NCBI GenBank assembly: GCA_021648495.1
Contig: JAKIST010000002.1
Location: 1 to 37,026, forward strand
Direction: 5' to 3'
Source: Draconibacterium sp.
GTDB lineage: Bacteria; Bacteroidota; Bacteroidia; Bacteroidales; Prolixibacteraceae
Length of the DNA: 37,026 nucleotides
Part shown: positions 9,200 to 30,934 of the stretch, one piece after another
Layout of the letters: the number at the start of each line of letters is the position of its first letter
Numbering within the stretch: position 1 is the stretch's first letter
Translations under genes and position numbers: made by a program
The notes under the pieces: generated by a model
Told to the model about the DNA's origin: nothing
The model's database searches: none
Seen by the model: only the letters and a program-made list of their open reading frames with translations

Positions 9200-9223
9200 T
9201 AAATATACACAACTGCAGATAAA

Positions 9224-11383: not shown

Positions 11384-11400
11384 CCAACTTCTCTTTATTA

Positions 11401-11531: not shown

Positions 11532-11634
11532 CCTCAGGCTTTGTAAAATAATAAATGCTTCAAATTTAACGAAGTTTTTTTGGTTTTTAGCAACTTGATA
11601 AATTTCGTATAGCCATGTTTATACAAAGATTTAG

Positions 11635-11663
11635 CAAAGAAGATAAAAAGCAAAAGAACAAGT
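11635..11663 (+). repeat. 29-bp dispersed repeat, copy A
   Basis: A 29-base string containing AAGATAAAAAGCAAAAGAAC is repeated exactly, in inverted orientation, at 31092-31120. It lies in the non-coding gap between the ccoI remnant and the DUF1016 gene. The purine-rich composition makes some chance similarity possible, but an exact 29-base match is not expected by chance in a window this size. Confidence 0.7.
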
Positions 11664-11730
11664 TAAAAAGGAGTAGTTATTGTTTTACAATGCCTCACTA
11701 TATTTAAACAGTTTCTAAAAATTACTAAAT

Positions 11731-15441: not shown

Positions 15442-16188
15442 ATGATTAACGACAAAAAAATTGTAGTTGTGCTCCCGGCGTACAATGCTGCAAAAACACT
15501 GGAAATTACCTACAACGAAATAGACTTTAAAATTGTTGACGATGTTATTTTAGTTGACGATTTAAGCAAAGACGACACGGTTGAAGTGGGCAAAAAACTG
15601 GGGATAAAACACATTGTTGTTCACAAGGAAAACAAAGGTTACGGTGGCAACCAAAAATCGTGTTACAACAAAGCACTAAAAATAGGTGCCGACATCGTAA
15701 TTATGCTCCACCCCGATTATCAATACACCCCGAAATTAATTCCTGCAATGGCAAGCTTGTTGGCAAGCGAATTATATCATGTTGTGCTCGGCTCTCGTAT
15801 TTTAGGGAAAGGTGCTTTAAAAGGAGGAATGCCACTGCTGAAATATGTTGCAAACCGCGGGTTAACATTTATTCAAAATATATTAATGGGAGCCAAGCTC
15901 TCGGAGTACCACACCGGTTACCGTGCATTTACAAAGGAAATTCTCGAAACTATTGCTTTCGAAGAGAACTCCGATAATTTTGTTTTTGATAATCAAATGC
16001 TGGCGCAAATTTGGTATGCCGGTTACGGAATTGCTGAAATTACCTGCCCCACAAAATATTTCGACGATGCATCGAGCATCAACCTGAGAAACAGCAGTAT
16101 TTATGGAATTGGCGTTTTAAAAACTTCAATTCAATTCAGGTTGCAAAAGTGGGGATTAATAAAAAACAAAATCTTTCAATTAAAATAG
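15442..16188 (+). CDS. GT2 glycosyltransferase, polyprenyl-phosphate type
   Basis: This 248-residue family 2 glycosyltransferase begins VVVLPAYNAAKTL and has ILVDDLSKDDT for nucleotide-sugar binding and HPDYQYTP at the position of the usual DxD metal site, a variant found in a subgroup of this family. No C-terminal membrane segments are obvious. It probably transfers a sugar from a nucleotide donor to an acceptor such as polyprenyl phosphate, which a GT-C enzyme would then use. The GT-C gene starts 6 nt downstream, supporting such a pair. Confidence 0.85.
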   Translation: MINDKKIVVVLPAYNAAKTLEITYNEIDFKIVDDVILVDDLSKDDTVEVGKKLGIKHIVVHKENKGYGGNQKSCYNKALKIGADIVIMLHPDYQYTPKLIPAMASLLASELYHVVLGSRILGKGALKGGMPLLKYVANRGLTFIQNILMGAKLSEYHTGYRAFTKEILETIAFEENSDNFVFDNQMLAQIWYAGYGIAEITCPTKYFDDASSINLRNSSIYGIGVLKTSIQFRLQKWGLIKNKIFQLK

Positions 16189-16194
16189 TAAAAA

Positions 16195-18258
16195 TTGAAT
16201 CTCACAAAATATTTACGGTTCAGCGTTTTGCTACTCCCAATTCTATTTTTATGGATTGGATTTAGCATCCATTTGGCAAAATTTGGGAATGACCCCAATT
16301 ATGTCTATTTGGTAAACGCTACTGCACTTTGTGATGGGAAAGGTGTTGGATATATTGATCATCCGGGAACAACGGTAATACAAATTGGTGCGGTAGCCAT
16401 TACTTTAAAGCATTTGTTTTCGAATCCTGAAAATGAAACGTTGGTGAGGCACGTTTTTGATGATTCACATACTTTTATTCTGAGTATCCGGAATGTATTG
16501 ATGCTTTTAAATGCTTTAATATTATTCTTGCTCGGTTGGATAGCCTTTAAAAAAACTCGTTCGATTTGGGTAGCTTTATTATTACAAGCTTCAACATTTA
16601 TTACAGCCAATACGCTGGACCACGTTTTTACAAAAGTTTCACCCGAGCCGTTTCTGTTCTTTTTAACTGCTGTTTTTGTAATTGTAGTACTTTGGTTTTA
16701 TGCCGATAAAAACAAAAACACGTGGAAATTTGTAACTGTTTTTACACTCTTAGTTGGTGCCGGACTGGCGACAAAAGCTACATTTTTACCATTGGCAATT
16801 TTCCCATTTATTGTTCTTCCAACCCTGAAAAAGAAATTGATTTATTCTTTCGGGGTTATTCCTTCGTTTGTACTGTTTACAATCCCGATAATTCCGGAAT
16901 ACAAACAGATGTATTACTGGTTTCGCGGGTTGATGAGCCATTCGGGAACATACGGACATGGCAAAAAAGGGATAATTGATGTACACACTTACTTCCCCGA
17001 TTTATTACGCATTTTAGAAAATAACCCAATTTTTGCAGTTGTTCTCATTGTTGGGTTGATTGTGGTCGCTGTTTCAATTCTTAGGTCGTATAATAAAAAA
17101 AGTGAAAAAGAGTGGGATATAAAAATATTAACAGGATTGGTAGCTAGCGCGGGTTTTGGAGTTTTAATGGTGGCGAAACATTACCACTCAAATCATTATT
17201 TGATTCCCTGTTTATTGCTCTCGGGTGTTATTGTATTTTTTATTCATAAAATTTTAGAACGAACGAACGTTCCAGTGTTTGTTAAAAAATACGATCTGCC
17301 TTTTTTAGTTGCTGCACTTGTTTTCTTTATTTTTTTCGTACAAATTCCAAATATTAAATATTTTAACGATGGTTATAAATTAACCAACGAGGAAATGGAT
17401 TCTACCAAGGCGATGATCGATCGCGATTATTCTGATTATACACGAATTTACTATTATCCAAATTCATTAAATCCGTACTCAGCTTTAAATTTTGGCGATG
17501 TTTACACAAAACGTAGAATGTTGCCTCAAATAAAAGAGGTTTATGGAAATATTTATTTTTATCACTCTTTTGAAAAGACTATAAAAGATTGGGATACCGA
17601 AGTTTTTTTAGACGATTTGGTCAAACAAAAGGGGAATAAAATACTTTTAATTGGCGGCCCCCGTGATGAAAAGGTTGTTCAAGAAATGGGGGAACAAGGA
17701 TTCCCTTTGCAAGAAATCTATAAAGGACGACTGCAGGTAATTTACAAATTAGATACTTTAAAGTACAAACAATTAAATGTTGGAAAAGGTGGAATTCTTA
17801 CAGAGAATATTTATTGCAATGCCGAAATACTAACTCCAGACAATCAGATTTACCTGGGATCTAATGGAAAGGAATTTGGCAACGCTTACAATCGCACAAA
17901 TGAAAAAGCACGCTCAGGAAAGCACTCTGTTAAAATGGATAGCAAAACTAAATACGCGCTTGAATATAACCTCAATAATTTAAAACCCGGAGATATTATT
18001 GAAGTAGAAGTTTGGCGGTTTTCAGATAATGAGAGTGGTCTGCTGGTTGTTGCTTCAAAAGATGCTAAACAATTTTACAAGTCGAAAAAAAACGCTGAAA
18101 AGACCGATGAAAATGGATGGGATCTTATACATATAAAATTCACCGTTCCTTCTAATTTACAAAATAATTCGTTAAAAATATATCTTTGGAACAAGGATAA
18201 AATGCTTGGGTATTTTGATGATCTTTCCATTAAAAAAATAAGCCCAAAACATGATTAA
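16195..18258 (+). CDS. GT-C-type membrane glycosyltransferase with C-terminal beta-sandwich module
   Basis: This 687-residue protein has about 10-12 predicted membrane helices in its first 390 residues, an early acidic/aromatic loop (FGNDPNYVYLV...GYIDHPGTT) typical of PMT/GT39-like GT-C enzymes, and DHVFTKVSPEPFLFF. After a soluble linker, residues about 533-684 form a module with VEVWRFSDNESGLLVV, GWDLIHIKF, KIYLWN and YFDDLSIKKI. The same module is found in the CotH lipoprotein and the GT-C protein at 26611. The start is TTG, 6 nt after the GT2 stop; no ATG is available before the first helix. It likely moves a lipid-linked sugar onto an exported acceptor. It converges with the next gene, 4 nt between stops. 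Confidence 0.78.
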   Translation: MNLTKYLRFSVLLLPILFLWIGFSIHLAKFGNDPNYVYLVNATALCDGKGVGYIDHPGTTVIQIGAVAITLKHLFSNPENETLVRHVFDDSHTFILSIRNVLMLLNALILFLLGWIAFKKTRSIWVALLLQASTFITANTLDHVFTKVSPEPFLFFLTAVFVIVVLWFYADKNKNTWKFVTVFTLLVGAGLATKATFLPLAIFPFIVLPTLKKKLIYSFGVIPSFVLFTIPIIPEYKQMYYWFRGLMSHSGTYGHGKKGIIDVHTYFPDLLRILENNPIFAVVLIVGLIVVAVSILRSYNKKSEKEWDIKILTGLVASAGFGVLMVAKHYHSNHYLIPCLLLSGVIVFFIHKILERTNVPVFVKKYDLPFLVAALVFFIFFVQIPNIKYFNDGYKLTNEEMDSTKAMIDRDYSDYTRIYYYPNSLNPYSALNFGDVYTKRRMLPQIKEVYGNIYFYHSFEKTIKDWDTEVFLDDLVKQKGNKILLIGGPRDEKVVQEMGEQGFPLQEIYKGRLQVIYKLDTLKYKQLNVGKGGILTENIYCNAEILTPDNQIYLGSNGKEFGNAYNRTNEKARSGKHSVKMDSKTKYALEYNLNNLKPGDIIEVEVWRFSDNESGLLVVASKDAKQFYKSKKNAEKTDENGWDLIHIKFTVPSNLQNNSLKIYLWNKDKMLGYFDDLSIKKISPKHD

Positions 18259-18262: not shown

Positions 18263-19699
18263 CTATTTAAATTTAATTTTGAATAATGCAAACCACCACA
18301 TTTTTAAAAGAAGCAGTCCATGTTTGAATCTCGAAATATTGGTGTCACCATAAATTCTTTCCTGATATCTGATTGGCATATCAATTATTTTTAGGTTTAG
18401 TTTGAAAGCGCCAAAAAGTAAATCATAATCTCCAAAAGGATCAAAATCTCCAAAATAAGAACGATTTGCCGCCAATTTCAAATAGTCTTTCCTGAACATA
18501 ACTTTTGTGCCGCAGAGTGTGTCTTTAATTGGTTGTTCCAATAACCAGCTAAAAGCCATACTAAAAAATTTATTTCCCAACGTATTTAAAAATCGCATAG
18601 CATTCTTTTCCATCGGGTAAATCAAGCGGGTACCATTTATAAACCCACCTTTGTTTTGCGCAATAGCATTATAAAATTTTGGAAGTTGCTCGGGAGGCAC
18701 GGTTAAATCTGCGTCCAGGATCATTAGAATATCCCCGGTGGCAATGTCATATCCAGCCCGCACTGCATCACCTTTTCCTTTTCCGGGTTGTTGTAACATT
18801 TTTATATCGTGCGATGTTTTGTATTTTTCTTTTATTTCCTGAATTTTTGCCCAGGTATCATCAGTTGAATTTCCTTCAACAAAAATTATTTCAATATGGT
18901 TTCCAAATTCAGGCAATCTAAGAATTGCATTTTCAATATTTCCACTTTCATTTCTGGCAGGTATTAATACCGAAGTTGAATATTTTGTTGTTATCTCGTC
19001 CTCTTTTATGCTTACTATGGGTTGAGCAAAAGAATACTGATTAAGTGCAAAGAGGTTAAAGAAAGGAAGCCTTGAAACGAACTTATTTAGAAATCCGGAG
19101 AATAGTGGGATATAATAAGGGGAAAGCATCGATGAGTTCTGTTTGTATGTTTCAAAACCCGACAGATACAAAAGGTTTGCCAAGTCTTTTGTGGAAATCC
19201 AACTTTGTTCTGGCCCCTTTTTTTTGATTCGGATAAACTCTGCAAATTTAATAAAGGGTTCCCAAAAAATATTGTAATAAGTAACAATAATTTTGGTTTC
19301 GTTATAACAAACTTTATGCAACTCTTCAAAAACACTCTGAATGTCAACCAGGTATCCAATCAGGTTCGAAAGAATAATAACATCGTATTTTTGCTCTAAT
19401 TGAATATTTTCTGCAGGTGAGCAGACGAAATTAATTGAAGGGAATTGCTTTTTTGCTTCTTCAATCATCTTTTCGCTCACGTCAATTCCAGTCTTTTCTT
19501 TGCCTTTTATTTTTCCAAGTAATTCACCTGTGCCACAACCAATTTCAAGAACAGAAGATTCATTATGAATAAAAAAGTTGCAATAGTTTGTGATACTGTC
19601 CCAATAGTATCTTTTCCTTTTTCTGTATTTGATTCTTGAATTTGCTGCTTGGTTGAAATAATCCTTTATACTTTGTTTCTTTTCTTTATAAATGTCCAT
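18263..19699 (-). CDS. Methyltransferase-GT2 glycosyltransferase fusion
   Basis: This 478-residue two-domain protein joins an N-terminal AdoMet methyltransferase (VLEIGCGTGELLG at about residues 50-62, then GIDVSEKMI) to a GT2 glycosyltransferase from about residue 240 (SVLIPARNESGNIENAI, IIFVEGNSTDDTW, GKGDAVRAGYDIATGD, DADLTVPP). The C-terminus FKHGLLLLKMWWFALFKIKFK resembles a membrane-associated amphipathic end. It could methylate and transfer sugars on the same lipid-linked intermediate. It is the last gene downstream of the CotH-DUF4956-VTC genes, 70 nt after the VTC stop, and is probably cotranscribed. Confidence 0.85.
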   Translation of the reverse strand: MDIYKEKKQSIKDYFNQAANSRIKYRKRKRYYWDSITNYCNFFIHNESSVLEIGCGTGELLGKIKGKEKTGIDVSEKMIEEAKKQFPSINFVCSPAENIQLEQKYDVIILSNLIGYLVDIQSVFEELHKVCYNETKIIVTYYNIFWEPFIKFAEFIRIKKKGPEQSWISTKDLANLLYLSGFETYKQNSSMLSPYYIPLFSGFLNKFVSRLPFFNLFALNQYSFAQPIVSIKEDEITTKYSTSVLIPARNESGNIENAILRLPEFGNHIEIIFVEGNSTDDTWAKIQEIKEKYKTSHDIKMLQQPGKGKGDAVRAGYDIATGDILMILDADLTVPPEQLPKFYNAIAQNKGGFINGTRLIYPMEKNAMRFLNTLGNKFFSMAFSWLLEQPIKDTLCGTKVMFRKDYLKLAANRSYFGDFDPFGDYDLLFGAFKLNLKIIDMPIRYQERIYGDTNISRFKHGLLLLKMWWFALFKIKFK

Positions 19700-19769: not shown

Positions 19770-20480
19770 CTACTCAGGAACCCCACTTCTAAAATGGCTC
19801 ATTCCGGCAACAAATTTCGAATTTTTATCTAAACGAAAAGGAAACTGGTTAGTAATTTTTTCAGCTTCACTGTCCCATTCCAGATCGTATTTTAATTCAA
19901 CAACCGTTTTTAAAGCTTCGCGGTAAAGCTGTGGAAAATGGTTCCAGGTTGAACGCAAAGAATAATACTCCAATTCATCGTCAACAGTAACACGGAACTT
20001 TTTGTTTAACGATGAATAGTAACTGCGCATGTACGAGTTTAACAAAACAGGTTGTAAATTGCTTAACCTTTCTCTAATTTCTTTTGGCAATTCGGCTTTT
20101 CCAAAAATATTTTTTAAAATAGATGCGTCAAAATTGTCTTTATTGATTTCGAATTCCGGAAGGCGAAATGATTTTTTTGTCCCAACAAAACCCTTTTTTA
20201 TTTTGAATTCCAAAACGGGAGAAATTGCCGTTCCGAAAACTTTTCCATACCAACGGATCCTGGCTTTCCAACGGTTTCCATTTCCAAAAAGATTGTCGAA
20301 ATAACAATCCAAGCCCGGTGTGTCGAAATAAATGTTGTTCACTTTCCGGGGATGAAAAACAGATACAAAAAACGCCTGGTTTTGTTTTATCACTGACTCG
20401 GCAGCCAAACGCGAAAATTCCAGGGCAACAAATTTCCGCTCGTAACGATATGTTTTTAATTCGGTGTACCCGTTTTGCAT
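19770..20480 (-). CDS. VTC-domain protein (polyphosphate polymerase fold)
   Basis: This 236-residue protein carries the VTC catalytic-domain pattern: an early YERKFVAL, NNIYFDT, a WKARIRWYG strand, LEFKIKKG, TVDDELEY and VELKYDL. These basic and acidic residues line the tunnel of triphosphate-tunnel enzymes that make polyphosphate from ATP in yeast Vtc4. Most key positions appear present, so catalysis is plausible, but no substrate is known for bacterial members next to CotH. It is encoded 8 nt downstream of DUF4956 and belongs to the same operon. There is no signal peptide, so it is cytoplasmic. Confidence 0.85.
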   Translation of the reverse strand: MQNGYTELKTYRYERKFVALEFSRLAAESVIKQNQAFFVSVFHPRKVNNIYFDTPGLDCYFDNLFGNGNRWKARIRWYGKVFGTAISPVLEFKIKKGFVGTKKSFRLPEFEINKDNFDASILKNIFGKAELPKEIRERLSNLQPVLLNSYMRSYYSSLNKKFRVTVDDELEYYSLRSTWNHFPQLYREALKTVVELKYDLEWDSEAEKITNQFPFRLDKNSKFVAGMSHFRSGVPE

Positions 20481-20488
20481 TTCAGTTC

Positions 20489-21169
20489 CTAAAAAGAGTA
20501 ATTATCTACAAACGAAACCCGTATTTCAGGGTTTAATTCATTCAACTTATTTTTAAAATCCTGAAGGTCTCCTGTATATTTAATTTCCACCCAAAATGCA
20601 GTTTCAATTAAATCGGACGTTTCATCGTAACGGACCAGTTTCGACGCTTTAAAGTTTTCCCTGACCAATTTATCCACATTTTCGAGCGATGGTTTCTTTG
20701 GGCCGGATCCGCTAACCGTTAAATATAAATTTTGTTGCCTGCTTTTTGTCGAACTTAAATGCCTCAACCAAATAATTACCAATAAAACAAAAGCCGCCAC
20801 AACTGATATTAAACGCTGATTTGCACCCAAACCTAAACCAATTGAAATGGTGAAAAACAAATACGCCAATTCTTCGGGCTCTTTAATTGCCGAACGAAAC
20901 CGGACGATAGACAAAGCACCTACCAAACCCAACGACAGTGCCAACGAAGATTTAACGATGGAAATAATGAGCATGGTGGTAAAAGCAATTAGAAAGAAGT
21001 TGGCCGCAAAGGCTTTTCGCCCCGATAAACTTTTGGCGCAACGTGTATATGTAAATTCCAAAATGAGTGAAAGCACCAAAATTATGACCGAATTAATTAG
21101 AAAATCAGAAATAGAGATTTGTGTATTTTCGGTTATTAAAAACCGTTGAAATAGATTCCATTTATCCAT
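20489..21169 (-). CDS. DUF4956 membrane protein
   Basis: This 226-residue protein has four hydrophobic segments in the first 135 residues and the DUF4956 core GLVGALSIVRFRSAIKEPEELAYLFFTISIGLGLGA, followed by a cytoplasmic ferredoxin-like C-terminal domain. Function is unknown. In many bacteria DUF4956, VTC and CotH genes are adjacent, as here (11 nt to CotH and 8 nt to VTC), which suggests a membrane complex in which DUF4956 could link a cytoplasmic polymer-making enzyme to an external kinase-like partner. That model is inference. Confidence 0.88.
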   Translation of the reverse strand: MDKWNLFQRFLITENTQISISDFLINSVIILVLSLILEFTYTRCAKSLSGRKAFAANFFLIAFTTMLIISIVKSSLALSLGLVGALSIVRFRSAIKEPEELAYLFFTISIGLGLGANQRLISVVAAFVLLVIIWLRHLSSTKSRQQNLYLTVSGSGPKKPSLENVDKLVRENFKASKLVRYDETSDLIETAFWVEIKYTGDLQDFKNKLNELNPEIRVSFVDNYSF

Positions 21170-21180
21170 GTTATTTTTTT

Positions 21181-24150
21181 TTATTGATACAATTTTACTG
21201 CTAAATTTTTCTCTCGTCCTTCAATAATTTTCCCATCTAAAGTTAGCGTTGAACCCAATTCTATCTGGTAGAAAATTACATTATTTTTCATTTTTAAATT
21301 ATCGACAATAAGGGTTGCCGGCCCGTATTCGGGTTTTTTCACGAAAGCCACCAGTCCATAAACGGTATTGTTCATCGTTATTTTGTCCAAAATTATGTTC
21401 GATAAATCTTTTGCTGCCACACCAATATTTGCCTTGTCAATTTCACAATTCGAAACGATTAAAGTTGAATTTTCTCCCCCCGAAATTGCCTTGTCTGAGA
21501 TTTCACTCATTTTGCAACCTGAAATAGTAACGCTACTTCCTGAAAAATCAATGGCATCGTTCCCGATATTTTTGAAAGTGCAATTTACGACTTTCCCTGT
21601 ACTAAAATCGGAATCGAAAGCATCGGCAAAGGTATTTTCGAACTTGCAATTTGCAACTAAAAATTTTGAACGTACAGTATTCAATGCATCGTCGCAATTT
21701 ATATTGGAGCTAAAAGTACAATTTTCAAAAACAATATCTGCCTCGTAAAAAGCAACTGCCGCCGGAGTTTCCCAACCTGCTTTTCGTAAGCTCCCCAATC
21801 CCGAAAAAATAACATATTTCAATTCCGATTTTCCTTGGGGTTGTAGAATATTAAATCCATTCGCCGATTTGTCGCTTGAAGTAATTACAATTGGATTTTC
21901 TTCTGTTCCCAAAAATTGAATTGGAGCAAAACTGATAAAAGAAGCACCTTCGATTAAATCAATTTGAGTGCCCGGTTTTGCAATTACTACAAATGAACCG
22001 GGAATAACCACATCGGTTTTGAATTGATAATTTCCTTCAAATACTATCGATTTCCCCTCTGCATGAATATTTTCGGGCAGTTGTTTTCTAACCACAATCT
22101 GCCTCGAGGTTTCACTATCGTAAAACGGCCACTGACTTACTTCGGTTTCGAACATTTCGATTCCAATTTCAAATAAAATTTTTAACGGAACACCTTTGGT
22201 TGGAATTGAAATTTTGGGAGGGGCCACACCATTATACGATTCCAATTCTGGTTTCTCTTCAAAACTTTCAGGCAAACCTCCTTCCATAAAAGCACCTAAT
22301 ATTTTTACTTTTGCATTGTGAAAATTTAGTACATCAATTTGTTTCTTTTTTTTATTAAAATAGGCGTGAATTTGGAATGGGATCAGATTATTATTAATGT
22401 CAGATGTGTATTCTTTTTTAAATTTTTCAGGTGTAATTTTCGAAACCGCTAATCCAATTTTTTCAATGTTGCTTTCAATTTTTTCAATATTGTTTTGAAT
22501 GTATTCGGCTTGCCTTTTTATATAATTGAAATTGAATTTATAATAAGGGAATTCTTGTTTAATAAGTGTTGAAATTGAATCTGCTTGTGGCTGGAATTCC
22601 GAAATTAATTGATTTATAAATCCCGGGGTACTGTATTTTTTCAAAAAACCGATGTATTTTTTTCTGAAAAGGTTATCGGTAAAAACCTGGAAAAGCATCA
22701 ATTCTTCTTTGTTGAACGATGCAATTTTATCGGGGAGCAAAAGTCCTGTTATTTGTTCATCAATGCGTTTGTATATTCCTCCTTCAATGTAACCGTCGAA
22801 TGCAATTGGCTCCAATAAACACGTAACCGGGTTATAGTAAAACCGTTGATTGTGCCAGGTAAATCCGTGGTAAGCCTGCGTAATGTCTATTAATGCATAA
22901 TATTTCGCTAATTTGTTAATGTCGAAAATTTGAGACACCAATTTTGAGCGGTTTTTATATTGCAAAAGCAATTTTTGTGCTTCAACAAGCTGTAAGTTTA
23001 ATAGGGAATCCTTGCTTGTTCGACCCTCTTTAAAAGGGATTATCTTTGCCGCTCCAAAATAATCGATGTCCCATTCACGTTTGGTTTGATTTGTTTCTAA
23101 AACACGCTGCCAAAATAAACTTTCGTCGAAACGCACAATTGGCCCTTCTCTCCGATTTTGGTTTTCGATAAGTTGTTTCTCAAAATGTTCTTCCCATGCG
23201 TAAATCCCCAGCGATTCGTTGTTCAATTTTACCGGAACAAAGCCATAACGCGTAGTCAAAACATCTTCTTGCTTAAATACTTTATGCGCAATCCATTCGT
23301 ACAAAAAATTACGGGTTGCCGGATTTTGGATTGAGAAAGTTCGCATGTTGTTCCACGCAAAATCTTTTTTCAGTTTTATGCGGAATGACCATTTCTGACC
23401 CTGGATATGATCTACCAAATCGCCTTTTAACCGAAAACTACCGTTTAAAAAATCTTTCCCGGCATACAAAACCATATTGGCATAATCTTCATTGGAACTT
23501 ACCAAAACCGTTGTTTCAAAAGCTTGCAATCGTTTTTGTTTGAACTTATTTAAAACCAACTCATCGGTATGAATTTGCAAAGTTGGTACATTGTATTCCG
23601 GAAATACTTTCTTATTTCTGTGAATTATCTGAAGATCATCAAAATATACTGTATCTGAGTTGTTGTTCCAAACATAAATTTTTATTTTTCCAGAATAAAA
23701 ATTTGGGGGGACGTGATATTCGAGAAATATTTTCTTCCAGCCATTCGTTCCTTCTTCAACTACTTGTTTCTTTGCACTATAATATCCATTTCCACCGTCA
23801 ACCACTAATACACCGCTGTTGTTTTTACTTTTACGCCAAGCTGTAACCTGGATATAATCATCAGGTTTAACTCTTGATAGGTCAGTTGTTAATCCATAAG
23901 GGCTTCCCGGATACAATTTACTTGAGAACTTACCTGAATAAGAAAAATCACCGGACTGAGTGTTGATATTACTAAAAAAAAGATTCTTTTCTGATACCTC
24001 CTTAAATTGCTTTTTCTGATCATCAATATCTTCAACATTGCAAAGGAAAACCTCTTCATTATCTTTTTTCTCTTTTTGTCCTGTTGAAGAACAAGAAGAA
24101 ATTATAAGAATAAAATAAAATAATAATATCAGATTTTTTGATAATCTCAT
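21181..24150 (-). CDS. CotH-kinase-like lipoprotein with beta-sandwich and beta-helix domains
   Basis: This 989-residue exported lipoprotein (signal ILLFYFILIISSC, lipobox ISSC) has three parts. Residues about 35-180 form the module shared with two GT-C proteins here (VTAWRKSKNNSGVLVVDGG, GWKKIFLEY, KIYVWN, YFDDLQI). Residues about 190-520 form a CotH-type domain, with FRLKGDLVDH near the nucleotide site, IDITQAYHGFTWHNQRFYY and LEPIAFDG as the conserved Asn and Asp active-site regions. From about 690 to the end there is a parallel beta-helix with repeated short turns (FENCTFSSN, VANCKFEN, GCKMSEISDKAI). Bacillus CotH is a secreted protein kinase; the target here is unknown. It is the first gene of the CotH-DUF4956-VTC operon. 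Confidence 0.85.
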   Translation of the reverse strand: MRLSKNLILLFYFILIISSCSSTGQKEKKDNEEVFLCNVEDIDDQKKQFKEVSEKNLFFSNINTQSGDFSYSGKFSSKLYPGSPYGLTTDLSRVKPDDYIQVTAWRKSKNNSGVLVVDGGNGYYSAKKQVVEEGTNGWKKIFLEYHVPPNFYSGKIKIYVWNNNSDTVYFDDLQIIHRNKKVFPEYNVPTLQIHTDELVLNKFKQKRLQAFETTVLVSSNEDYANMVLYAGKDFLNGSFRLKGDLVDHIQGQKWSFRIKLKKDFAWNNMRTFSIQNPATRNFLYEWIAHKVFKQEDVLTTRYGFVPVKLNNESLGIYAWEEHFEKQLIENQNRREGPIVRFDESLFWQRVLETNQTKREWDIDYFGAAKIIPFKEGRTSKDSLLNLQLVEAQKLLLQYKNRSKLVSQIFDINKLAKYYALIDITQAYHGFTWHNQRFYYNPVTCLLEPIAFDGYIEGGIYKRIDEQITGLLLPDKIASFNKEELMLFQVFTDNLFRKKYIGFLKKYSTPGFINQLISEFQPQADSISTLIKQEFPYYKFNFNYIKRQAEYIQNNIEKIESNIEKIGLAVSKITPEKFKKEYTSDINNNLIPFQIHAYFNKKKKQIDVLNFHNAKVKILGAFMEGGLPESFEEKPELESYNGVAPPKISIPTKGVPLKILFEIGIEMFETEVSQWPFYDSETSRQIVVRKQLPENIHAEGKSIVFEGNYQFKTDVVIPGSFVVIAKPGTQIDLIEGASFISFAPIQFLGTEENPIVITSSDKSANGFNILQPQGKSELKYVIFSGLGSLRKAGWETPAAVAFYEADIVFENCTFSSNINCDDALNTVRSKFLVANCKFENTFADAFDSDFSTGKVVNCTFKNIGNDAIDFSGSSVTISGCKMSEISDKAISGGENSTLIVSNCEIDKANIGVAAKDLSNIILDKITMNNTVYGLVAFVKKPEYGPATLIVDNLKMKNNVIFYQIELGSTLTLDGKIIEGREKNLAVKLYQ

Positions 24151-24199: not shown

Positions 24200-24207
24200 T
24201 AACTTTG
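24200..24207 (+). promoter_or_regulatory. -7 box (TAACTTTG) of the T9SS protein gene
   Basis: TAACTTTG is a full match to TAnnTTTG and places the transcription start near 24214, 12 nt before the ATG at 24226. It overlaps the TTG that the ORF track uses as start (24205), which argues that this TTG is not translated. Confidence 0.6.
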
Positions 24208-24225
24208 CAATGCCTTTCTTTGAAT

Positions 24226-25683
24226 ATGAAAAATCTTTTAACAAATAGTATTCTAATCTTGCTGGTATTCTTTAACCAACAAAGTATAATTGCTCAAAAT
24301 GCTAATTATTATGGAAGTAAAGAAGAAGACATTGCAAATTCAATTGTTCAATACGATAATAATTTTTACATACTCGGAACTACTCGTGTAACGGAAAAAA
24401 GTTCAACAGATTATTATGTAGTACAATTAAACGCAAATGGAAGTTTGAAAAAAGAATTTACTTTCGGTGAAAAGCATGGTGACGTAGGGAAACATATTTT
24501 GGTAAATAAAGGTGGGATTTTTGTTTTGGGAAAATCCTGGGATGGTGGATTTCCAAATAACGATATGGTTTTGACCAAATTAGATTTTGAGGGAAAACAA
24601 AAATGGAAAAAATTTTACGGCGGCGAAAAAAATGATTTGGGGCACAAATTTATTATCACAAAAGATAATGGATTTGCCATGGTTGGTTTTAACCGAAGCG
24701 TGGATGACTTTGGCGATGTTTATTTGGTAAAAGCAAATAATGATGGTGAAATGGTTTGGGAAAATCATTTTGGAGGACGTTATGTCGATCACGGTTTCGA
24801 TGTAATTGAAAATGAAAAAGGAGAGTTTATAGTTGTTGGAACGCTCGGTGGTTTTTATAATCCAACCAGCACAGATTATTTAAATCACGATGCCGATGTA
24901 TTCATTATAAAAACCAACTCGTTGGGAGAAGAAATTTGGTTGAAGACTTTTGGTGGAGCAAGTCACGACTGGGCAAAAGAAATTATTGCAGCACCGGGAG
25001 GTGGATATTATGTTTGTGGTTCGACACAAAGCGAAGGTGCTGGGAGTTTCGATTTCTTTTTAATGAAAATTGACGATAACGGGAATAAATTATGGTCAAA
25101 AACTTATGGAGGGACAGACTTCGATTATGGCGAAACTATGCGAATAAGCAAAGATCAAAAATTATATATTTTGGGAAGTAGCGCCAGTTATTCGGATAAC
25201 TATAAACCAGATCATTTATTAATAAAAACCGATTTGGAAGGCGAAATAATTTGGTCGAATACATTTGGTGGAAATGGTTCTGATTACAGTAGCGCAATGG
25301 TTTGCACCAATGATTCGGGGTGTGTTTTTACCGGCTGGACGGACAATGGAAATATTGGAAAAAAAGACATTGTCTTTTATAAAATATCGAAAGATGGAAT
25401 ACCAAAATTTATTTCCTCCATACCTCGTGTAAACGACAGTATCGAGCAAATAAAAGTTTTCCCAAATCCGGTTAATAATAATTTTTCAGTATTGATTAAC
25501 ACCAAGTTAATAACCGACTTTAAATTAAATCTGTACAATATAAAAGGTGTATTAATTTATAACAAGATGATTCATCCAAATGTTCTTAGCACTCACCAAC
25601 CTCAATTTCCATCAGGAATTTACCTGTTTACAATTCAAAATAATAACAACGTTGTATTTAACGGGAAATTAGTTTTCAATTAA
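24226..25683 (+). CDS. T9SS-secreted repeat protein with type A sorting domain
   Basis: I start this at the ATG at 24226 (485 residues), because the upstream TTG lies in the promoter box and the ATG begins a clean signal peptide (KNLLTNSILILLVFF...IIAQ). The body consists of about six or seven repeats of 50-60 residues of the form FGG...D.G..I....GG...GxT.S....D....K.D..G...W.K.FGG, a beta-propeller-like secreted repeat type. The last 80 residues (IKVFPNPVNNNFSV ... GIYLFTIQ) are a type A T9SS sorting domain, so the protein is exported by type IX secretion and released or anchored at the cell surface. It converges with the phosphoesterase gene, 4 nt between stops. Confidence 0.87.
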   Translation: MKNLLTNSILILLVFFNQQSIIAQNANYYGSKEEDIANSIVQYDNNFYILGTTRVTEKSSTDYYVVQLNANGSLKKEFTFGEKHGDVGKHILVNKGGIFVLGKSWDGGFPNNDMVLTKLDFEGKQKWKKFYGGEKNDLGHKFIITKDNGFAMVGFNRSVDDFGDVYLVKANNDGEMVWENHFGGRYVDHGFDVIENEKGEFIVVGTLGGFYNPTSTDYLNHDADVFIIKTNSLGEEIWLKTFGGASHDWAKEIIAAPGGGYYVCGSTQSEGAGSFDFFLMKIDDNGNKLWSKTYGGTDFDYGETMRISKDQKLYILGSSASYSDNYKPDHLLIKTDLEGEIIWSNTFGGNGSDYSSAMVCTNDSGCVFTGWTDNGNIGKKDIVFYKISKDGIPKFISSIPRVNDSIEQIKVFPNPVNNNFSVLINTKLITDFKLNLYNIKGVLIYNKMIHPNVLSTHQPQFPSGIYLFTIQNNNNVVFNGKLVFN

Positions 25684-25687: not shown

Positions 25688-26590
25688 CTATTTCGCTAAC
25701 ATTGAATCAAGGTCGTGAAATTGCCAGTTCAGCCAACCATTTTCAGGAACATGTTTAAATTCTAATATCCAATCGTGGGGGGAATTTTCACGTTCTATCG
25801 GATCCTGAAATTTACTTCGGTTAAGGCCAGTTCCCAAAAAATGGATTCCATCGTCGGAAACAGCATCAATTTTTTGAGATCCCATATCACCTAAAATAAG
25901 AATAACTTCAATTCCCCGCTCTTTAACTTTTACCAAACGGGGGTAAATTTCTTTTATAAATGTAGCGTCCGCATCATCGCAGGTAAAACTAAACCGTTTC
26001 AGGTTACTTTGTGCATAATTATATGGAGAAGGTAACCCGGGAACATTTTCCCAAATTCCATGGTGCATAATAAAAATCAGGTGAGTTGATTTTTCAATAG
26101 TATCGCACAAATTAACAATTATCCGATATTGATCATTCAATTGTTCGCAATCGTACGGAGTTAAATTTGTATTCAACACCATGTAACTAATTCCTTTATA
26201 CGTACTGGTATAATATGATTTTTTACCGCTCAACTCCTCAACCCAATTCCAATTACCGTTTCGGGCATCGTGATTTCCAAAAGCCCAATGCGTGTTTGGG
26301 TGTTTTAAATCGAAAAGTTTATCAATGTACTCCAGGGTTGTGTATTCAAGCAATGCTTCAGAACAAACATCTCCTCCCAGCCAAATCCCATCATATCCCG
26401 ACAAATCCATTTTTTCCAGACGTTCATCAAGCTTGTCGCCGGCAGTGTGCCACTGGTAGGTATGACCAACAAAAAGATATTTTAAAGTATCCGTTTGGCC
26501 GGAAACATTTAAAACCAAATACAATAAAAAGAAAAATAGAATACTCCCTTTTTTTATATCAAATGCGTTATTTCGTTTTAGTACTTGCAT
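25688..26590 (-). CDS. Exported metallophosphoesterase-like protein
   Basis: This 300-residue protein has an N-terminal signal sequence (about residues 16-31) and a calcineurin-like phosphoesterase fold: GGDVC, GNHDARNG and MHHG motifs are clear. The first metal motif, normally DxH, reads VGHTYQW, and the final GHxH reads GDMG, so the metal site is altered at two points. It may be a variant subfamily or have changed activity. The start is ATG, 20 nt after the GT-C stop, so it probably ends the ArnT-like/GT2/GT-C operon. Possible roles are removal of phosphate from lipid carriers or glycan phosphate groups; this is a guess from context. Confidence 0.75.
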   Translation of the reverse strand: MQVLKRNNAFDIKKGSILFFFLLYLVLNVSGQTDTLKYLFVGHTYQWHTAGDKLDERLEKMDLSGYDGIWLGGDVCSEALLEYTTLEYIDKLFDLKHPNTHWAFGNHDARNGNWNWVEELSGKKSYYTSTYKGISYMVLNTNLTPYDCEQLNDQYRIIVNLCDTIEKSTHLIFIMHHGIWENVPGLPSPYNYAQSNLKRFSFTCDDADATFIKEIYPRLVKVKERGIEVILILGDMGSQKIDAVSDDGIHFLGTGLNRSKFQDPIERENSPHDWILEFKHVPENGWLNWQFHDLDSMLAK

Positions 26591-26610: not shown

Positions 26611-28482
26611 TTAATAACTCGTTATTTTTGAATGTAGCTTTTTTATAAACATGTGCCGGTTATTCCTGTTCCAAACATACATCTTAACAATTGCCGATTT
26701 TGGGATATTTGCCGGAAACCGTGTGTGTACTGAAACCGTTTTCCATTCTTTATCATCAACATTCCACTCCAAAGGTTGAACTTCATATCTCAAGTTTTCC
26801 TTCCCGTTTTCAACAGAAATAACCAGTAAAACATCTTTGTTTTTTATTGTTTCATCGCTTTTGTATTGAATTTGTAACTCAGCTTTAAAAATCTCTTTTT
26901 GCAATAATTCGTCAACATAAACTACAATTGACGGACTATATTCACTCGAATTTTGTAGCTCAAATACATTTTCTCCATCTATGCTAATTACTTGTTTCGA
27001 CTTTGCCGGGTTAATTTCCAATTCACGTAAAAAGGTATCAGAACCAGAAATAGCTTTTCGGTTTTTAACCTTTTTATAAATGTGGATTGCATAATCGTAA
27101 CCACCCAATACTTTTATTTTTTGAACCGGGAAAAAGGACTTTATCTTTTGCAAATGACTATCGTTTTCTATAGATTCAAAACTTACCCGTCCTTCGTTGG
27201 GACCAAAATGTGCATCCCAAATTAAAATATCACCAAAATCCATTGAATTCGAAGGCTGTAATTTATCGCCAATTCCCCAGTTAGATTTTGTTTTATCGTA
27301 CGGATCGAGGTTTAAGTGAAAAATTAATTCAGGATTGAAATAATATATCTTTTCATTTTGTCCCTTTTGTTTCAAAAAATCGGCACTCTTTATTATCAGT
27401 TTGTCAATTCGCCCGGCTTTTAATGGAAGATGATTTTGATTAAAAAAAAGAAAAATCTGTGCAACTGCAATAAAGGAAAGTATTGCAAAAACTAAATTTC
27501 CTTTATTAATCCTTTCAAAAAGAAACTGAATACCTTTTACTCCTGTTAAAGCTGCCAGCGGAATAACTCCTCCCATCACCCGAATTAAACCAAGTGAGCC
27601 TCCCATTCCTTTCCACCAAACAAAACTATGTGCCGCAAAATAGGTTAACCAACTCCCGGTAATAACAATAAACAGAATAAAATTTTCATTTCTTATCTTA
27701 AATTTTTTCAATATTTCCACAGTCCAGGAAATGAGGCCGGGCACCAAAACCAATAAAAATGGTATTCCGAATATATAATTGCTTTTTTTAATAAAATGAA
27801 ATAATTCTCCACTACCGTACACACTTTCACCTTTTGGATAAGGGAATCTGTTTATTATCCACAAGAAATCGTTGAAAGCAAAATATCCAACAATGGAATA
27901 AAAAAGGGTTCCAACAGAAAGAAACAGGATTGAAAAATAAGAACGTTTTAACAAAAAAGCCAATGCGAAAACGGGCATCAAAACAATTCCCTCCATTCGA
28001 ACAAAAGGGATGAATGATAAAACAATTGCCGAAAATATAAACCTGTTTTTCATAAACAGATATACCGAAAAAATAAGTGTAAAACTGAAAAGCACTTCGG
28101 TGAGGCAGGTTATCATCAATAAAAAATAAATGGGAGCAAATGCGGTGAGAACAACCGTAAAAATCGCACCGGAAGGAAAAATTAGTTTTGAGATTTTAAA
28201 AACAAAAATCAGTGTTAAAACGGCGACTACCAAATTAAAAACCTGGGCACTTTTAAAACCAAACAAAGCAAATGACGCTGATAGAGTTGTGTAAACCGGT
28301 TTTCCCCAATGATCTAAAAATAAACGCGGATATTTAAAAGCAAATCTGGCTATTTGAAAATGTGAAATACTATCGGCTCCGCCAAAAGCTTTTTCATTAA
28401 AAATTAATAATAATAACTGTAACAGAATTAAAGTTGACAGAAAAAAGTAAAGAAGCCGTTTTTCAATTTTGTTACTTTCCAT
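26611..28482 (-). CDS. GT-C-type membrane glycosyltransferase with C-terminal beta-sandwich module
   Basis: This 623-residue polytopic protein has about 10 membrane helices in its first 370 residues and the external loop GGADSISHFQIARFAFKYP...DHWGKPVY, typical of GT-C mannosyl- or PMT-like enzymes. Residues about 495-620 form a soluble domain ending EWKTVSVHTRFP...VKMYVWNRNNRHMFIKKLH, which matches the module in the proteins at 16195 and 21181 (YxWN and following hydrophobic strand), although FDDL is degenerate. The gene begins 11 nt after the GT2 stop, so the GT2 enzyme may supply its polyprenyl-phosphate sugar. Confidence 0.76.
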   Translation of the reverse strand: MESNKIEKRLLYFFLSTLILLQLLLLIFNEKAFGGADSISHFQIARFAFKYPRLFLDHWGKPVYTTLSASFALFGFKSAQVFNLVVAVLTLIFVFKISKLIFPSGAIFTVVLTAFAPIYFLLMITCLTEVLFSFTLIFSVYLFMKNRFIFSAIVLSFIPFVRMEGIVLMPVFALAFLLKRSYFSILFLSVGTLFYSIVGYFAFNDFLWIINRFPYPKGESVYGSGELFHFIKKSNYIFGIPFLLVLVPGLISWTVEILKKFKIRNENFILFIVITGSWLTYFAAHSFVWWKGMGGSLGLIRVMGGVIPLAALTGVKGIQFLFERINKGNLVFAILSFIAVAQIFLFFNQNHLPLKAGRIDKLIIKSADFLKQKGQNEKIYYFNPELIFHLNLDPYDKTKSNWGIGDKLQPSNSMDFGDILIWDAHFGPNEGRVSFESIENDSHLQKIKSFFPVQKIKVLGGYDYAIHIYKKVKNRKAISGSDTFLRELEINPAKSKQVISIDGENVFELQNSSEYSPSIVVYVDELLQKEIFKAELQIQYKSDETIKNKDVLLVISVENGKENLRYEVQPLEWNVDDKEWKTVSVHTRFPANIPKSAIVKMYVWNRNNRHMFIKKLHSKITSY

Positions 28483-28493: not shown

Positions 28494-29219
28494 CTATCTT
28501 TTAAAAACATTATATTTCAAAATACACCACAAGGCACGAAACCCATCTTTGGCACTAATTTTTTTCCCTTCATCGTAGGTGCGCCCATAATACGAAATTC
28601 CAATTTCATAAATACGGATATTCGGCACCCTCGAAATTTTTGCAGTCACTTCAGGCTCAAACCCAAAGCGGGTTTCTTGCAAATTCAAATTCTTTATAAT
28701 ATCCGATTTAAATAATTTATAACATGTTTCCATATCGGTTAAATTTAGATTGGTAAACATATTGGAAGCAAAGGTGAGGAATTTATTCCCGATGGAATGC
28801 CAGAAAAATAGAATGCGGTGTGGGTTGCCCCCCATAAAACGCGAACCATAAACCACGTCTGCATTCCCTTCAGCAACAGGTTTTAACAAATCGTTGTATT
28901 CGCGTGGATCGTATTCCAAATCGGCATCCTGAATAATTATACATCCGCCTGTTGCTCTGGCAATTCCACGGTGAAGCGCGGCTCCTTTTCCCATATTTTG
29001 GGGCTGGTGAAAGAATTTTATTTCAGCCTCGGGATGCTCATTAATATAATCCTCAATCACTTCAACCGACTTGTCGGAAGAACAGTCGTTAACTAAAATT
29101 ATTTCTTTTTGGAACCCATAATTTAACTTCACTTCCAACACTCTGTCTAAAATTGGTTCAATGGTTCTCTCCTCGTTGTAAACCGGTATTATTATCGAAA
29201 GAATATTCATCTTTTCCAT
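28494..29219 (-). CDS. GT2 glycosyltransferase, DPM1-like
   Basis: This family 2 glycosyltransferase resembles dolichyl/polyprenyl-phosphate mannose synthases: [54 protein letters not shown], the DxD-type [17 protein letters not shown] and the acceptor-loop [12 protein letters not shown]. There are no C-terminal membrane helices. The track start (TTG at 29249) lies inside a TATCTTTG -7 box, so I use the ATG at 29219 (241 residues); the ATG at 29210 is also possible. It likely makes the lipid-linked sugar used by the adjoining GT-C enzyme. Confidence 0.88.
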
Positions 29220-29246
29220 GTAATACTTAATTGTTGAAAAGTTGGT

Positions 29247-29254
29247 CAAAGATA
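29247..29254 (-). promoter_or_regulatory. -7 box (TATCTTTG) of the DPM1-like gene
   Basis: TATCTTTG on the minus strand matches TAnnTTTG, with a TTTG 22 nt upstream, slightly longer than the usual 19-21. It would start transcription near 29240. This provides a promoter inside the minus-strand glycan gene run and rejects the TTG start at 29249. Confidence 0.5.
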
Positions 29255-29293: not shown

Positions 29294-30934
29294 TCAATTT
29301 CCTTGTTTTTGAGTTGTGACAAACAAATAATTTGTTGTTAAAGAATTTTCTCTGGTGCCGGGATTTAAAAATTGCATATTAATTCGATTCATGCCGTTTT
29401 GTCGAATTTCATAAATAGTATCAAATTTAAATTCCATATTTATTATATCGTTGTATTTTATCGAATTTGTATAAATCCATGTCTCCGGTTTTTCAAAAAC
29501 GTCGTATAATTCTTCCCAGTTATTTATTTGGTCCACAGCGTCTTTTGCATAAAAAAACATTTCATATTCTTCCAATTCAAAATTATATAGATGTTTATCT
29601 TTCCCTGCATTTTTTTCGAAAAGAGTTAAAACTTGTTTTGCCCCTTGGTATTTATATAGGTCGGGCAATATTTTTACATTCAACAATAAACTTGAGGCCC
29701 CAATAACGATTGTTGAAATAAGTACTAATTTGTTAATCCTCTCAGCAGGTGTTTTTAATGCTATAAAAATTGCGAATGTTGAAGAAACAAAAATCGTTAA
29801 CGGAATCCAAATTGCATCTAATGCGAATACAATTGTGAGGAAAATAAAAGTTGCTCCGAGCCAACTAATTAATACGATTTGAGAACGGATAAAAAATAGT
29901 TGTAATCTTTTCGAAATTGCAGAGAAGTGGCTAGCCCAACTCGCCGTTACAATTGAAATTACCGGGATAGCAATTAAAAAGTAATTGGGTGCTTTGCCTT
30001 TTGCAATGCTTAATATGAATACAAAAAGCAGGACACTGCCCAAAAGATAAACTCCCCAAATGTTGTATCCCTTTTTTGTAATCCAGCTTTTTATTTCAAA
30101 TACAATTGCGCCTGTAACAAAAACGGTCCAGGGTAAAACCGCCCACAAAAGGGTGTGGATATAAAAAAACAGGTCGGAACTGGAACCTGCATATTCTCCG
30201 GTAATTCGTCCAATATTATTGGTTATGAAATAAAACTTTAACCCTTCTATCCCAAAATTGTTATACAACTGGAATAGCGTTGGTGAAATTACAACCGACA
30301 CAATTAAAATACCGAGAATCCATTTTGGGTGAAAAAGCTGGCGGAAATCTCTCTTCCCCAGTAAATATAACAATACTGCAAAAAATGGTAATATTGCTCC
30401 AACCGGACCTTTTGAAAGCATGGCAAGCCCAACACCGAAAAAGCCCAACACAAAACTTGCTGCTTTCCTCTTTTGTAAATAAGCCGCCAATTGCCACAAC
30501 GCCAAAATAACCCCGGTTTGTAAAACTGTATCGGTATGAAAATCGAAAAAATAGAGAAAAAATATTTGTGAAGTTCCAGCTAATAAGGCTGCAAGTTTTC
30601 CAACCTCGCCAGAAAATAGTTGTTTCCCCAAGCAATACGTAAAATAAATTCCAAGCAATCCGTATAAAAAAGGGAACAATTTGAATGCAAAATTGGTATT
30701 TCCAAAAAGTTGAATCCCAAAACCTGCCAGCCAGAAAAACAGGTGCGGCTTTTGGTCGTAAGGCACACCATTGATTTTAAGGTTAAACCAATCTCCAGAC
30801 TCCACCATTTGGCGCGAAATTGCCGCGTAAAGTCCTGAATCTCCTGTCAGATCGATGAACAAGCCAAAAATATATGCCAATCCAACAAGTAGAAAGGCAT
30901 ATCCCCACAATATTTTATTTACTTGAATTTTCAA
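29294..30934 (-). CDS. ArnT/PMT-like (GT39/GT83) membrane glycosyltransferase
   Basis: This 546-residue polytopic protein has the ArnT/PMT signature: the early GLFIDLTGDSGLYAAISRQMVESGDWFNLKINGVPYDQKPHLFFWL, with the acidic residues in the first periplasmic loop, followed by FFDFHTDTVLQTGVILALW and MLSKGPVGAILPFF. About 11-12 helices precede a small C-terminal soluble domain. Such enzymes move an undecaprenyl-linked sugar onto lipid A or protein. The start is TTG; an in-frame TAA two codons upstream leaves no earlier start. It lacks the beta-sandwich module of the other two GT-C proteins here. Confidence 0.87.
   Translation of the reverse strand: MKIQVNKILWGYAFLLVGLAYIFGLFIDLTGDSGLYAAISRQMVESGDWFNLKINGVPYDQKPHLFFWLAGFGIQLFGNTNFAFKLFPFLYGLLGIYFTYCLGKQLFSGEVGKLAALLAGTSQIFFLYFFDFHTDTVLQTGVILALWQLAAYLQKRKAASFVLGFFGVGLAMLSKGPVGAILPFFAVLLYLLGKRDFRQLFHPKWILGILIVSVVISPTLFQLYNNFGIEGLKFYFITNNIGRITGEYAGSSSDLFFYIHTLLWAVLPWTVFVTGAIVFEIKSWITKKGYNIWGVYLLGSVLLFVFILSIAKGKAPNYFLIAIPVISIVTASWASHFSAISKRLQLFFIRSQIVLISWLGATFIFLTIVFALDAIWIPLTIFVSSTFAIFIALKTPAERINKLVLISTIVIGASSLLLNVKILPDLYKYQGAKQVLTLFEKNAGKDKHLYNFELEEYEMFFYAKDAVDQINNWEELYDVFEKPETWIYTNSIKYNDIINMEFKFDTIYEIRQNGMNRINMQFLNPGTRENSLTTNYLFVTTQKQGN

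Follow-up and report, generated by a model that had tools for sequence, protein, structure and literature searches.

A locus of a marine Draconibacterium sp. centered on a three-gene operon, which encodes an exported CotH-family lipoprotein, a DUF4956 membrane protein and a VTC-domain protein, may constitute a trans-envelope module for surface-glycan modification that is fed by exported polyphosphate. We infer these activities and hold the reading as a whole tentatively, at a little less than an even chance. Among its parts, modification of an envelope glycan or glycoprotein is probable, export of polyphosphate by DUF4956-VTC is possible but somewhat doubtful, and use of polyphosphate as the phosphate donor for CotH is improbable. 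The genes and domains listed here lie in the window, i.e., the whole stretch of 37,026 nucleotides that was analyzed (GCA_021648495.1, contig JAKIST010000002.1, positions 1 to 37,026).

15442-16188 (+), GT2, polyprenyl-phosphate-sugar-synthase-like (class by inference), paired with the following GT-C-like protein (ORF, sequence)
16195-18258 (+), GT-C-like membrane protein with a C-terminal domain of the CotH N-terminal type (about 17812-18237)
18263-19699 (-), methyltransferase-GT2 fusion (Pfam Methyltransf_25, 2.9e-14; Glycos_transf_2, 4e-26)
19770-20480 (-), VTC-domain polyphosphate-polymerase-like protein, cytosolic, 236 aa (Pfam VTC, 1.6e-24)
20489-21169 (-), DUF4956 integral membrane protein (Pfam DUF4956, 6.1e-17)
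21181-24150 (-), CotH-family lipoprotein, 989 aa, whole gene (Pfam CotH, 1.2e-8; Beta_helix, 9.5e-10)
21211-22005 (-), right-handed beta-helix of CotH, residues 716-980 (conservation, model, Foldseek)
22420-23583 (-), kinase-fold domain of CotH, residues 190-577 (Foldseek to 5jd9/5jda, E 7e-12; alignments)
23617-24054 (-), N-terminal carbohydrate-binding-like beta-sandwich of CotH, residues 33-178 (model strands, Foldseek)
24205-25683 (+), T9SS cargo with beta-propeller-like repeats, divergent from CotH (Por_Secre_tail, 7.9e-7)
25688-26590 (-), exported calcineurin-like phosphoesterase (Pfam, 2.7e-4; confirmed by relatives)
26611-28482 (-), second GT-C-like protein with a weakly related C-terminal domain (blastp, 28% over 71 aa, E 1e-4 in a database of only four sequences)
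28494-29249 (-), GT2 paired with the second GT-C-like protein (Pfam, 8e-34)
29294-30934 (-), PMT_2/ArnT-like GT-C glycosyltransferase (Pfam PMT_2, 2.6e-23)

The architecture of the operon agreed with the original prediction of three genes lying 8-11 nt apart: the ORFs are separated by 11 nt (CotH-DUF4956) and 8 nt (DUF4956-VTC), and the Pfam hits for CotH, Beta_helix, DUF4956 and VTC all exceed curated cut-offs. The methyltransferase-glycosyltransferase expected behind the trio is the fusion at 18263-19699, which starts 70 nt beyond VTC and is retained in this place in loci L023, L025, L027, L028 and L032. An NCBIfam search returned no name for any trio protein. Recurrence in bacteria, also anticipated, was borne out, as the trio is found in conserved order in Bacteroidota, KSB1, Calditrichota, Omnitrophota, Patescibacteria and an archaeon, and the association is therefore far beyond chance. 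Cultivable laboratory relatives with the operon include Maribellus sediminis and Mariniphaga anaerophila. The trio was correctly described as having no settled function, although published genetics had already tied it to the Pel polysaccharide (PMC12345266). CotH, polyphosphate-polymerase and DUF4956 genes accompany Gram-positive pel loci as accessory genes (PMC7112168; Streptococcus intermedius SIR_1592-1594, PMC12345266), and in S. intermedius deletions of the CotH and DUF4956 genes alter the amount of Pel in opposite directions, while no phenotype was reported for the VTC gene deletion (PMC12345266). The same 2025 paper did not find the trio outside Pel loci (PMC12345266). In contrast, and as a new result, we found it widely outside such loci, and a Pfam search detected no pel genes in the window.

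Sequence evidence shows the VTC protein to be soluble and to have a full polyphosphate-polymerase tunnel; polymerase activity is predicted. Its domain scored 87.2 bits in Pfam (curated cut-off, 23), and the VTC profile matches Vtc4/Vtc2 structures. The comparison with yeast Vtc4 proposed in the original prediction showed the tunnel to be intact: residues K16, R74, R76, E91, K93, R152, R163, E195, K219 and K222 were invariant or at least 93% conserved, and all but E91 correspond, in order, to K200, R264, R266, K281, R361, R373, E426, K455 and K458, which we take to be the tunnel residues of Vtc4 (alignment to Vtc4 chains placed the first six, and motifs the other three). Across 80 Bacteroidota genomes, all full-length VTC genes adjoin a DUF4956 gene (22/22), which identifies DUF4956 as the obligate membrane partner of VTC in Bacteroidota. 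The Draconibacterium genome also encodes PPK1.

DUF4956 was modeled (pLDDT 78) with five transmembrane helices and a C-terminal cytosolic ACT/ferredoxin-like domain. Foldseek yielded no whole-chain match at E<=1e-3, and many of the top hits were ACT/ferredoxin-like folds aligned over about 80-100 residues; phmmer searches of PDB sequences with DUF4956 and with CotH gave nothing useful, and no DUF4956 relatives were found in phage records. In the 80 Bacteroidota genomes, a HlyD-type periplasmic adaptor adjoins 20 of 32 DUF4956 genes, and OEP/TolC-like proteins follow some of the adaptor genes. This adjacency suggests that DUF4956 may be part of an exporter. A 416-aa gene product beside the adaptor in L111 was rejected as not OEP-like, and no adaptor or outer-membrane channel gene lies beside DUF4956 in the window. 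Ten of the 32 genes lack a nearby VTC, and seven of these ten have adaptors; DUF4956 is therefore not linked exclusively to polyphosphate. It is unlikely that the trio instead forms a regulatory module without export, in which an MgtC-like DUF4956 adjusts how much phosphate or ATP reaches glycan synthesis, VTC acts as a phosphate buffer and CotH as a signaling kinase. Such a role would fit the distant similarity of DUF4956 to MgtC (hhalign probability 86, E 5e-6 over 184 columns; no Pfam MgtC hit), which outranked all 118 control membrane proteins in the profile comparison, as well as the MgtC domain plus ACT assigned by the S. intermedius authors to the DUF4956-family protein whose loss raised Pel (PMC12345266). 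However, the adaptor and OEP-like genes would be odd companions for a regulator, and CotH is located outside the cytoplasm.

The CotH protein is shown by its sequence to be an exported lipoprotein (lipobox LIISSC, Cys19; AlphaFold model pLDDT 91.8) that combines a carbohydrate-binding-like domain, a kinase fold and the beta-helix already noted in the original prediction. The N-terminal domain matched CBM16, CBM22 and a porphyran CBM in Foldseek (E about 4e-4 to 3e-3) and is the same domain as that at the C-terminus of the GT-C-like protein (37% identity). Across 13 related genomes it is confined to trio CotHs and GT-C-like proteins of ~650-690 aa, and in trio genomes these GT-C-like carriers are the ones adjoining the trio in the same locus. 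GT-C-like proteins that an iterated CotH profile had labeled were traced to this shared domain and separated with domain-cut queries.

The central domain is a clear CotH match (Pfam, 35.3 bits versus a cut-off of 23.8; Foldseek to 5jd9, TM 0.70 on target). In Bacillus subtilis CotH, D228 is catalytic and a D228Q variant is inactive (PMC7821199). With both positions fixed by their 23-residue spacing in 5jd9, H428 aligns with D228 and is His in 37/39 members of the CotH clade, whereas D452, aligned with the metal-binding D251, is kept in 36/39. Canonical CotHs adjoining other DUF4956 genes mostly retain the Asp (the Pfam search served to identify bona fide CotH neighbors, since iterating a canonical-CotH profile pulled in T9SS tails). 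The catalytic residue has changed systematically in this one CotH clade, and because the Bacillus catalytic Asp is absent, the name "kinase" should not be assumed, contrary to what the original prediction implied. It is rather unlikely that the kinase fold serves as a binding scaffold or is a pseudo-enzyme, leaving the beta-helix as the working part of an epimerase-, lyase- or transferase-like surface enzyme that modifies polysaccharides. The His substitution is consistent with this, and the beta-helix is the most conserved part of CotH (invariant columns, 21/265 versus 16/388 in the kinase domain), with an invariant Asp/Lys/Glu stack (D821, D843, D846, D848, D865, D868, D886, K887, E893, K914 and D915), a fold resembling those of AlgG alginate epimerase and GH87, and AlgX and MBOAT genes in the neighborhood of related trios. 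Nonetheless, these fold matches, which include tailspikes, are weak and generic, and R240, K242, G243, D247, H248, E320, E321, E329 and R334 are near-invariant in the kinase domain, as is D452, contrary to decay.

Together with the domains, the neighboring genes suggest envelope glycan modification and phosphate-polymer export. A C-terminal sorting domain (TIGR04183, 8.8e-8, 32 bits versus a cut-off of 23) bears out the predicted T9SS cargo, which likely starts at ATG 24226 and has a homolog in the same place in 14/27 trio loci. The exported metallophosphoesterase recurs as a fourth partner, present in 17/27 Bacteroidota trio loci and within the operon in L082, L089 and L100, and MBOAT and AlgX O-acetylation genes lie near 11/27 trio loci. 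DUF2490, considered as a general partner, is limited to close relatives. The GT-C genes that had been predicted to surround the trio are confirmed for 29294-30934, the only one with a Pfam GT-C match (PMT_2; its NCBIfam ArnT match, 2.2e-28, is under the ArnT cut-off), while 16195-18258 and 26611-28482 gave no GT-C hit in Pfam and carry the weaker label GT-C-like, based on their hydrophobic layout and on the polyprenyl-phosphate-sugar-synthase-like GT2 next to each (the 15442-16188/16195-18258 pairing is conserved). Likewise, glycosyltransferases accompany the trio within its family, but many trio or DUF4956-VTC loci outside Prolixibacteraceae adjoin housekeeping genes (MurF-Alr, PdxA, Obg), and the glycan-locus setting is thus just one of several. 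These neighbors, together with the minority share of glycan families among 127 genes near distant trios, would suit a self-contained phosphate-storage or stress module whose glycosyltransferase setting is lineage synteny without functional meaning. We regard this as very unlikely in light of the domain common to CotH and the GT-C-like proteins but absent elsewhere in the genomes tested, and of the independent pel linkage in Gram-positives (PMC7112168, PMC12345266).

Under the glycan-modification reading, VTC would synthesize polyphosphate at the cytosolic face and DUF4956 may carry it over the inner membrane, by analogy with yeast VTC and with the adaptors and TolC-like proteins found elsewhere in Bacteroidota. 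On the outer side, the N-terminal domain of CotH would bind a glycan or glycoprotein built by the neighboring GT-C-like enzymes, and CotH would place or transfer phosphate, possibly from exported polyphosphate, since ATP is absent outside the cytoplasm; the phosphoesterase may trim or reverse the product. We count in favor the intact VTC tunnel, VTC-DUF4956 adjacency, the adaptors, the lipobox and domains of CotH, the domain shared with GT-C-like proteins, the recurrent phosphoesterase, the MBOAT and AlgX genes and the Pel effects in S. intermedius (PMC12345266). Counted against it are the lost catalytic Asp, the opposite Pel effects and lack of a reported VTC-deletion phenotype (PMC12345266), DUF4956 genes without VTC, the adaptor-free window, genomic PPK1 and distant trio loci that often lie outside glycan clusters. 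The predicted phosphorylation or polyphosphate-linked envelope modification is partly supported: it gains from the intact VTC residues, the conserved operon, the glycosyltransferase setting in its family, the shared domain and the polysaccharide effect, and is weakened by the CotH residue, the housekeeping settings outside Prolixibacteraceae and the lack of a reported VTC-deletion phenotype. A broader version is distinctly unlikely. In it, DUF4956-VTC would both make polyphosphate and export it across the bacterial envelope, together with outer components of HlyD/TolC or another type; exported CotH-fold proteins would use or attach the polymer outside the ATP-containing cytoplasm, and this CBM-CotH(His)-beta-helix lipoprotein would be the glycan-specialized form.

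These results touch on the phosphate source of extracytoplasmic kinase-fold proteins without ATP, the role of bacterial VTC alongside PPK, and the role of DUF4956. Genome evidence leads us to propose a VTC-DUF4956 polymerase-membrane pair, often with periplasmic adaptors, that would supply an exported enzyme sharing a glycan-binding-like domain with adjoining glycosyltransferases.

In the yeast VTC complex (Vtc4/Vtc1), polyphosphate synthesis is coupled to transit. The Draconibacterium pair resembles it in the catalytic tunnel and in linking a soluble polymerase domain with a membrane protein, but has no SPX domain, pairs with DUF4956 (possibly MgtC-like) rather than DUF202/Vtc1, and has synthesis and transit only as predictions. 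Adaptors and OEP-like genes beside other Bacteroidota DUF4956 genes recall type I/tripartite export (inner-membrane component, HlyD adaptor and TolC), although no ABC or RND pump was seen and the window contains no adaptor. The Bacillus CotH spore-coat kinase (5jd9, 5jda) shares the kinase fold and the D251 equivalent, whereas the trio CotH has His at the D228 equivalent, is a lipoprotein and carries extra CBM-like and beta-helix domains. Alginate modification (AlgG, AlgX, AlgI) offers an AlgG-resembling beta-helix and AlgX and MBOAT genes near related trios; here, alginate synthase is absent and the beta-helix shares its chain with a kinase fold. Finally, the three families of the pel accessory trio likewise share an operon adjacent to polysaccharide genes, with an extracytoplasmic CotH and a membrane protein assigned an MgtC-like plus ACT layout. 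The Draconibacterium trio stands without pel genes among phosphoesterase, T9SS cargo and GT-C-like neighbors; its CotH, a lipoprotein, carries CBM-like and beta-helix domains and has His in place of the catalytic Asp.

The CotH, DUF4956 and VTC genes lie where the original prediction placed them, each matching its Pfam family over the curated cut-off, and form one operon with intergenic gaps of 11 nt (CotH/DUF4956) and 8 nt (DUF4956/VTC). These genes and their confirmed neighbors are as follows:

21181-24150, reverse strand: CotH family protein (Pfam)
20489-21169, reverse strand: DUF4956 protein (Pfam)
19770-20480, reverse strand: VTC protein (Pfam)
18263-19699: methyltransferase-GT2 fusion (confirmed by Pfam)
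24205-25683: T9SS cargo (confirmed)
29294-30934: PMT_2 GT-C (confirmed)

Predicted GT-C surroundings were borne out for the PMT_2 gene, while for the proteins at 16195-18258 and 26611-28482, neither of which matched a Pfam family, the GT-C-like label comes solely from their architecture and the GT2 genes paired with them. The source genome (Prolixibacteraceae group) is incomplete (3.0 Mb, 74% complete), and the closest named loci by DUF4956 identity were in a Prolixibacteraceae MAG (85%) and Maribellus (79-81%). Elsewhere in the window, cytochrome cbb3 oxidase genes (973-5475; FixO, FixP, FixG, FixH, DsbD-like) and a CcoI-like copper ATPase (12985-15384) flank ResIII helicase, ORF6N, N6/N4 DNA methylase and YhcG nuclease genes (5625-12849), apparently a restriction-type island inserted into the cco/fix operon.

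The best evidence in the analysis that CotH and the glycosyltransferases may act on the same substrate is a common domain. The N-terminal domain of CotH is 37% identical over 131 aa to the C-terminus of the GT-C-like protein at 16195-18258, and across 13 genomes it occurred only in trio CotHs and 650-690-aa GT-C-like proteins. Domain-bearing GT-C-like proteins shared a locus with the trio in three trio genomes, and two genomes without a trio each encoded one.

The trio had been predicted to phosphorylate, or to modify in a polyphosphate-linked way, an envelope glycan or surface protein, and loss of catalytic residues in both candidate enzymes was to count against this; VTC withstood that check, and CotH fell to it in part. 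The VTC protein has kept its tunnel residues: R12, E14, R15, K16, R70, K72, R74, R76, E91, K93, K102, R152, R163, E195, K197, K219 and K222 are near-invariant among 70 relatives. A profile from 33 of these relatives matched the Vtc2, Vtc3 and Vtc4 structures, with K16, R74, R76, K93, R152 and R163 aligning to the Vtc4 tunnel lysines and arginines, which are among its catalytic residues. By sequence, VTC is not a dead enzyme.

In CotH, a catalytic residue has been lost, but not at random. The confident predicted structure (pLDDT 91.8) comprises a lipoprotein signal, beta-sandwich (33-178), CotH fold (190-577), linker and right-handed beta-helix (716-980). The top Foldseek match was the B. cereus CotH kinase 5jd9 (E 7e-12), followed by weak matches of the beta-helix to AlgG, GH87 and tailspike beta-helices, and of the N-terminus to CBM16, CBM22 and porphyran-CBM folds. 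Substitution D228Q inactivates B. subtilis CotH (PMC7821199); profile alignment to 5jd9 places D228 at H428 and D251 at D452, a mapping supported by the 23-residue Asp-Asp spacing of 5jd9, which equals 251-228. Among 39 relatives, position 428 is His in 37 and position 452 Asp in 36, whereas the catalytic Asp is kept in canonical CotHs adjoining other DUF4956 genes (loci L107, L109, L124, L094 and L099; Glu in L110) and in the genome's own other two CotHs (L139, L140). The site in this clade is therefore changed yet conserved, and H428 is the main weakness in regarding the trio CotH as a putative kinase. The beta-helix is better conserved than the kinase domain (35 of 265 columns at least 95% conserved and 21 invariant, versus 30 of 388 and 16) and carries a conserved Asp/Lys/Glu stack (D821, D843, D846, D848, D865, D868, D886, K887, E893, K914, D915). 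In locus L077, DUF4956-VTC adjoins another CotH type, whose catalytic Asp region is replaced by Asn-Gly-Ser; it too is joined to a beta-helix that bears a comparable Asp-rich motif.

The DUF4956 model (pLDDT 78) shows five TM helices, with an ACT-like beta-alpha-beta domain at the C-terminus. A strongly conserved loop, VRFRxAIKEPEELAY, separates TM3 from TM4 and would be cytosolic by the positive-inside rule. Profile comparison pointed to similarity with MgtC (probability 86, E 5e-6, 184 columns), and single MgtC sequences outranked all 118 control membrane proteins. The S. intermedius homolog has likewise been described as MgtC plus ACT (PMC12345266).

Across 80 Bacteroidota genomes (32 DUF4956 and 23 VTC matches), all 22 full-length VTC genes adjoined DUF4956, the 23rd match being an 87-aa fragment; 10 of the 32 DUF4956 genes lacked VTC, and 7 of the 32 had a CotH within about 8 kb. 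Reading all 32 surroundings revealed an HlyD-type adaptor adjoining DUF4956 or VTC in 20. One adaptor family was Pfam-confirmed (L107, L111, L113, L137); the second (11 members) had only sub-threshold Pfam hits, and profile comparison linked it to the Pfam-confirmed family (probability 97, E 4e-10). An OEP/TolC gene was present in L107 (4e-17), and a 410-aa protein with OEP-like similarity in five loci (probability 73, E 3e-5). Seven adaptor loci lacked VTC, and the adaptor is therefore tied to DUF4956 rather than VTC; we infer that DUF4956 is a transport component whose cargo VTC mostly provides. A VTC-free cluster, DUF6580-DUF4956-HlyD-OEP-like (L113, L133, L134, L136, L138), is a possible exporter. 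VTC and DUF4956 are paired once more in the window's own genome, with DUF2490 behind them (L114, C5:17000-23500), and the same order is found several times within the genus (L006, L010, L011-L014, L017-L019). Of the named controls (14 genomes), all three families are present in C. glutamicum and M. acetivorans, and DUF4956 with VTC in Bacteroides ihuae.

Nearby genes were counted in 27 loci of Bacteroidota in which CotH directly precedes DUF4956; given their common ancestry, the counts are not independent: exported phosphoesterase (17/27), GT2 or GT-C genes no more than six genes away (16/27), divergent T9SS beta-propeller cargo (14/27) and O-acetylation genes MBOAT and/or AlgX (11/27). The L025 phosphoesterase carries its own T9SS tail. 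The phosphoesterase is also an internal or terminal gene of the operon in MAGs of Calditrichota (L082) and Curtissbacteria (L089) and in Methanogenium (L100), and a more distant metallophosphoesterase separates DUF4956 from VTC in a KSB1 MAG (L081); Pfam Metallophos was confirmed in L081, L082 and L089, and not in the L100 protein. Between CotH and DUF4956, L054 and L055 hold MBOAT, AlgX and an unknown 181-aa protein, and L084 AlgX alone with the 181-aa protein. The gene order in the archaeon Methanogenium marinum (L100) is DUF4956-CotH-phosphoesterase-like-VTC, and this archaeal copy suggests that the module moved horizontally.

Sequence comparison establishes the operon, its conservation, the domain layout, the intact VTC site, the altered CotH site, the shared domain and the adaptor linkage. 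Under the proposed mechanism, polyphosphate would be exported and phosphoryl transfer would take place onto a substrate that is probably a glycan or glycoprotein. The trio kind itself is already known: it has been described next to streptococcal, clostridial and bifidobacterial pel genes (PMC7112168), and a C. perfringens locus combines VTC, a membrane protein and CotH with a glycosyltransferase (PMC2879425). We found no description of the CotH clade, its partners or the adaptor linkage in the literature searched. S. intermedius mutants lacking the CotH gene made less Pel and those lacking the DUF4956-like gene made more, both aggregating less, and VTC deletion had no reported phenotype (PMC12345266), the last being the main weakness of the proposal that polyphosphate is the donor. 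The authors of that study found no trio outside Pel loci, whereas the window and dozens of other loci carry it outside such loci.
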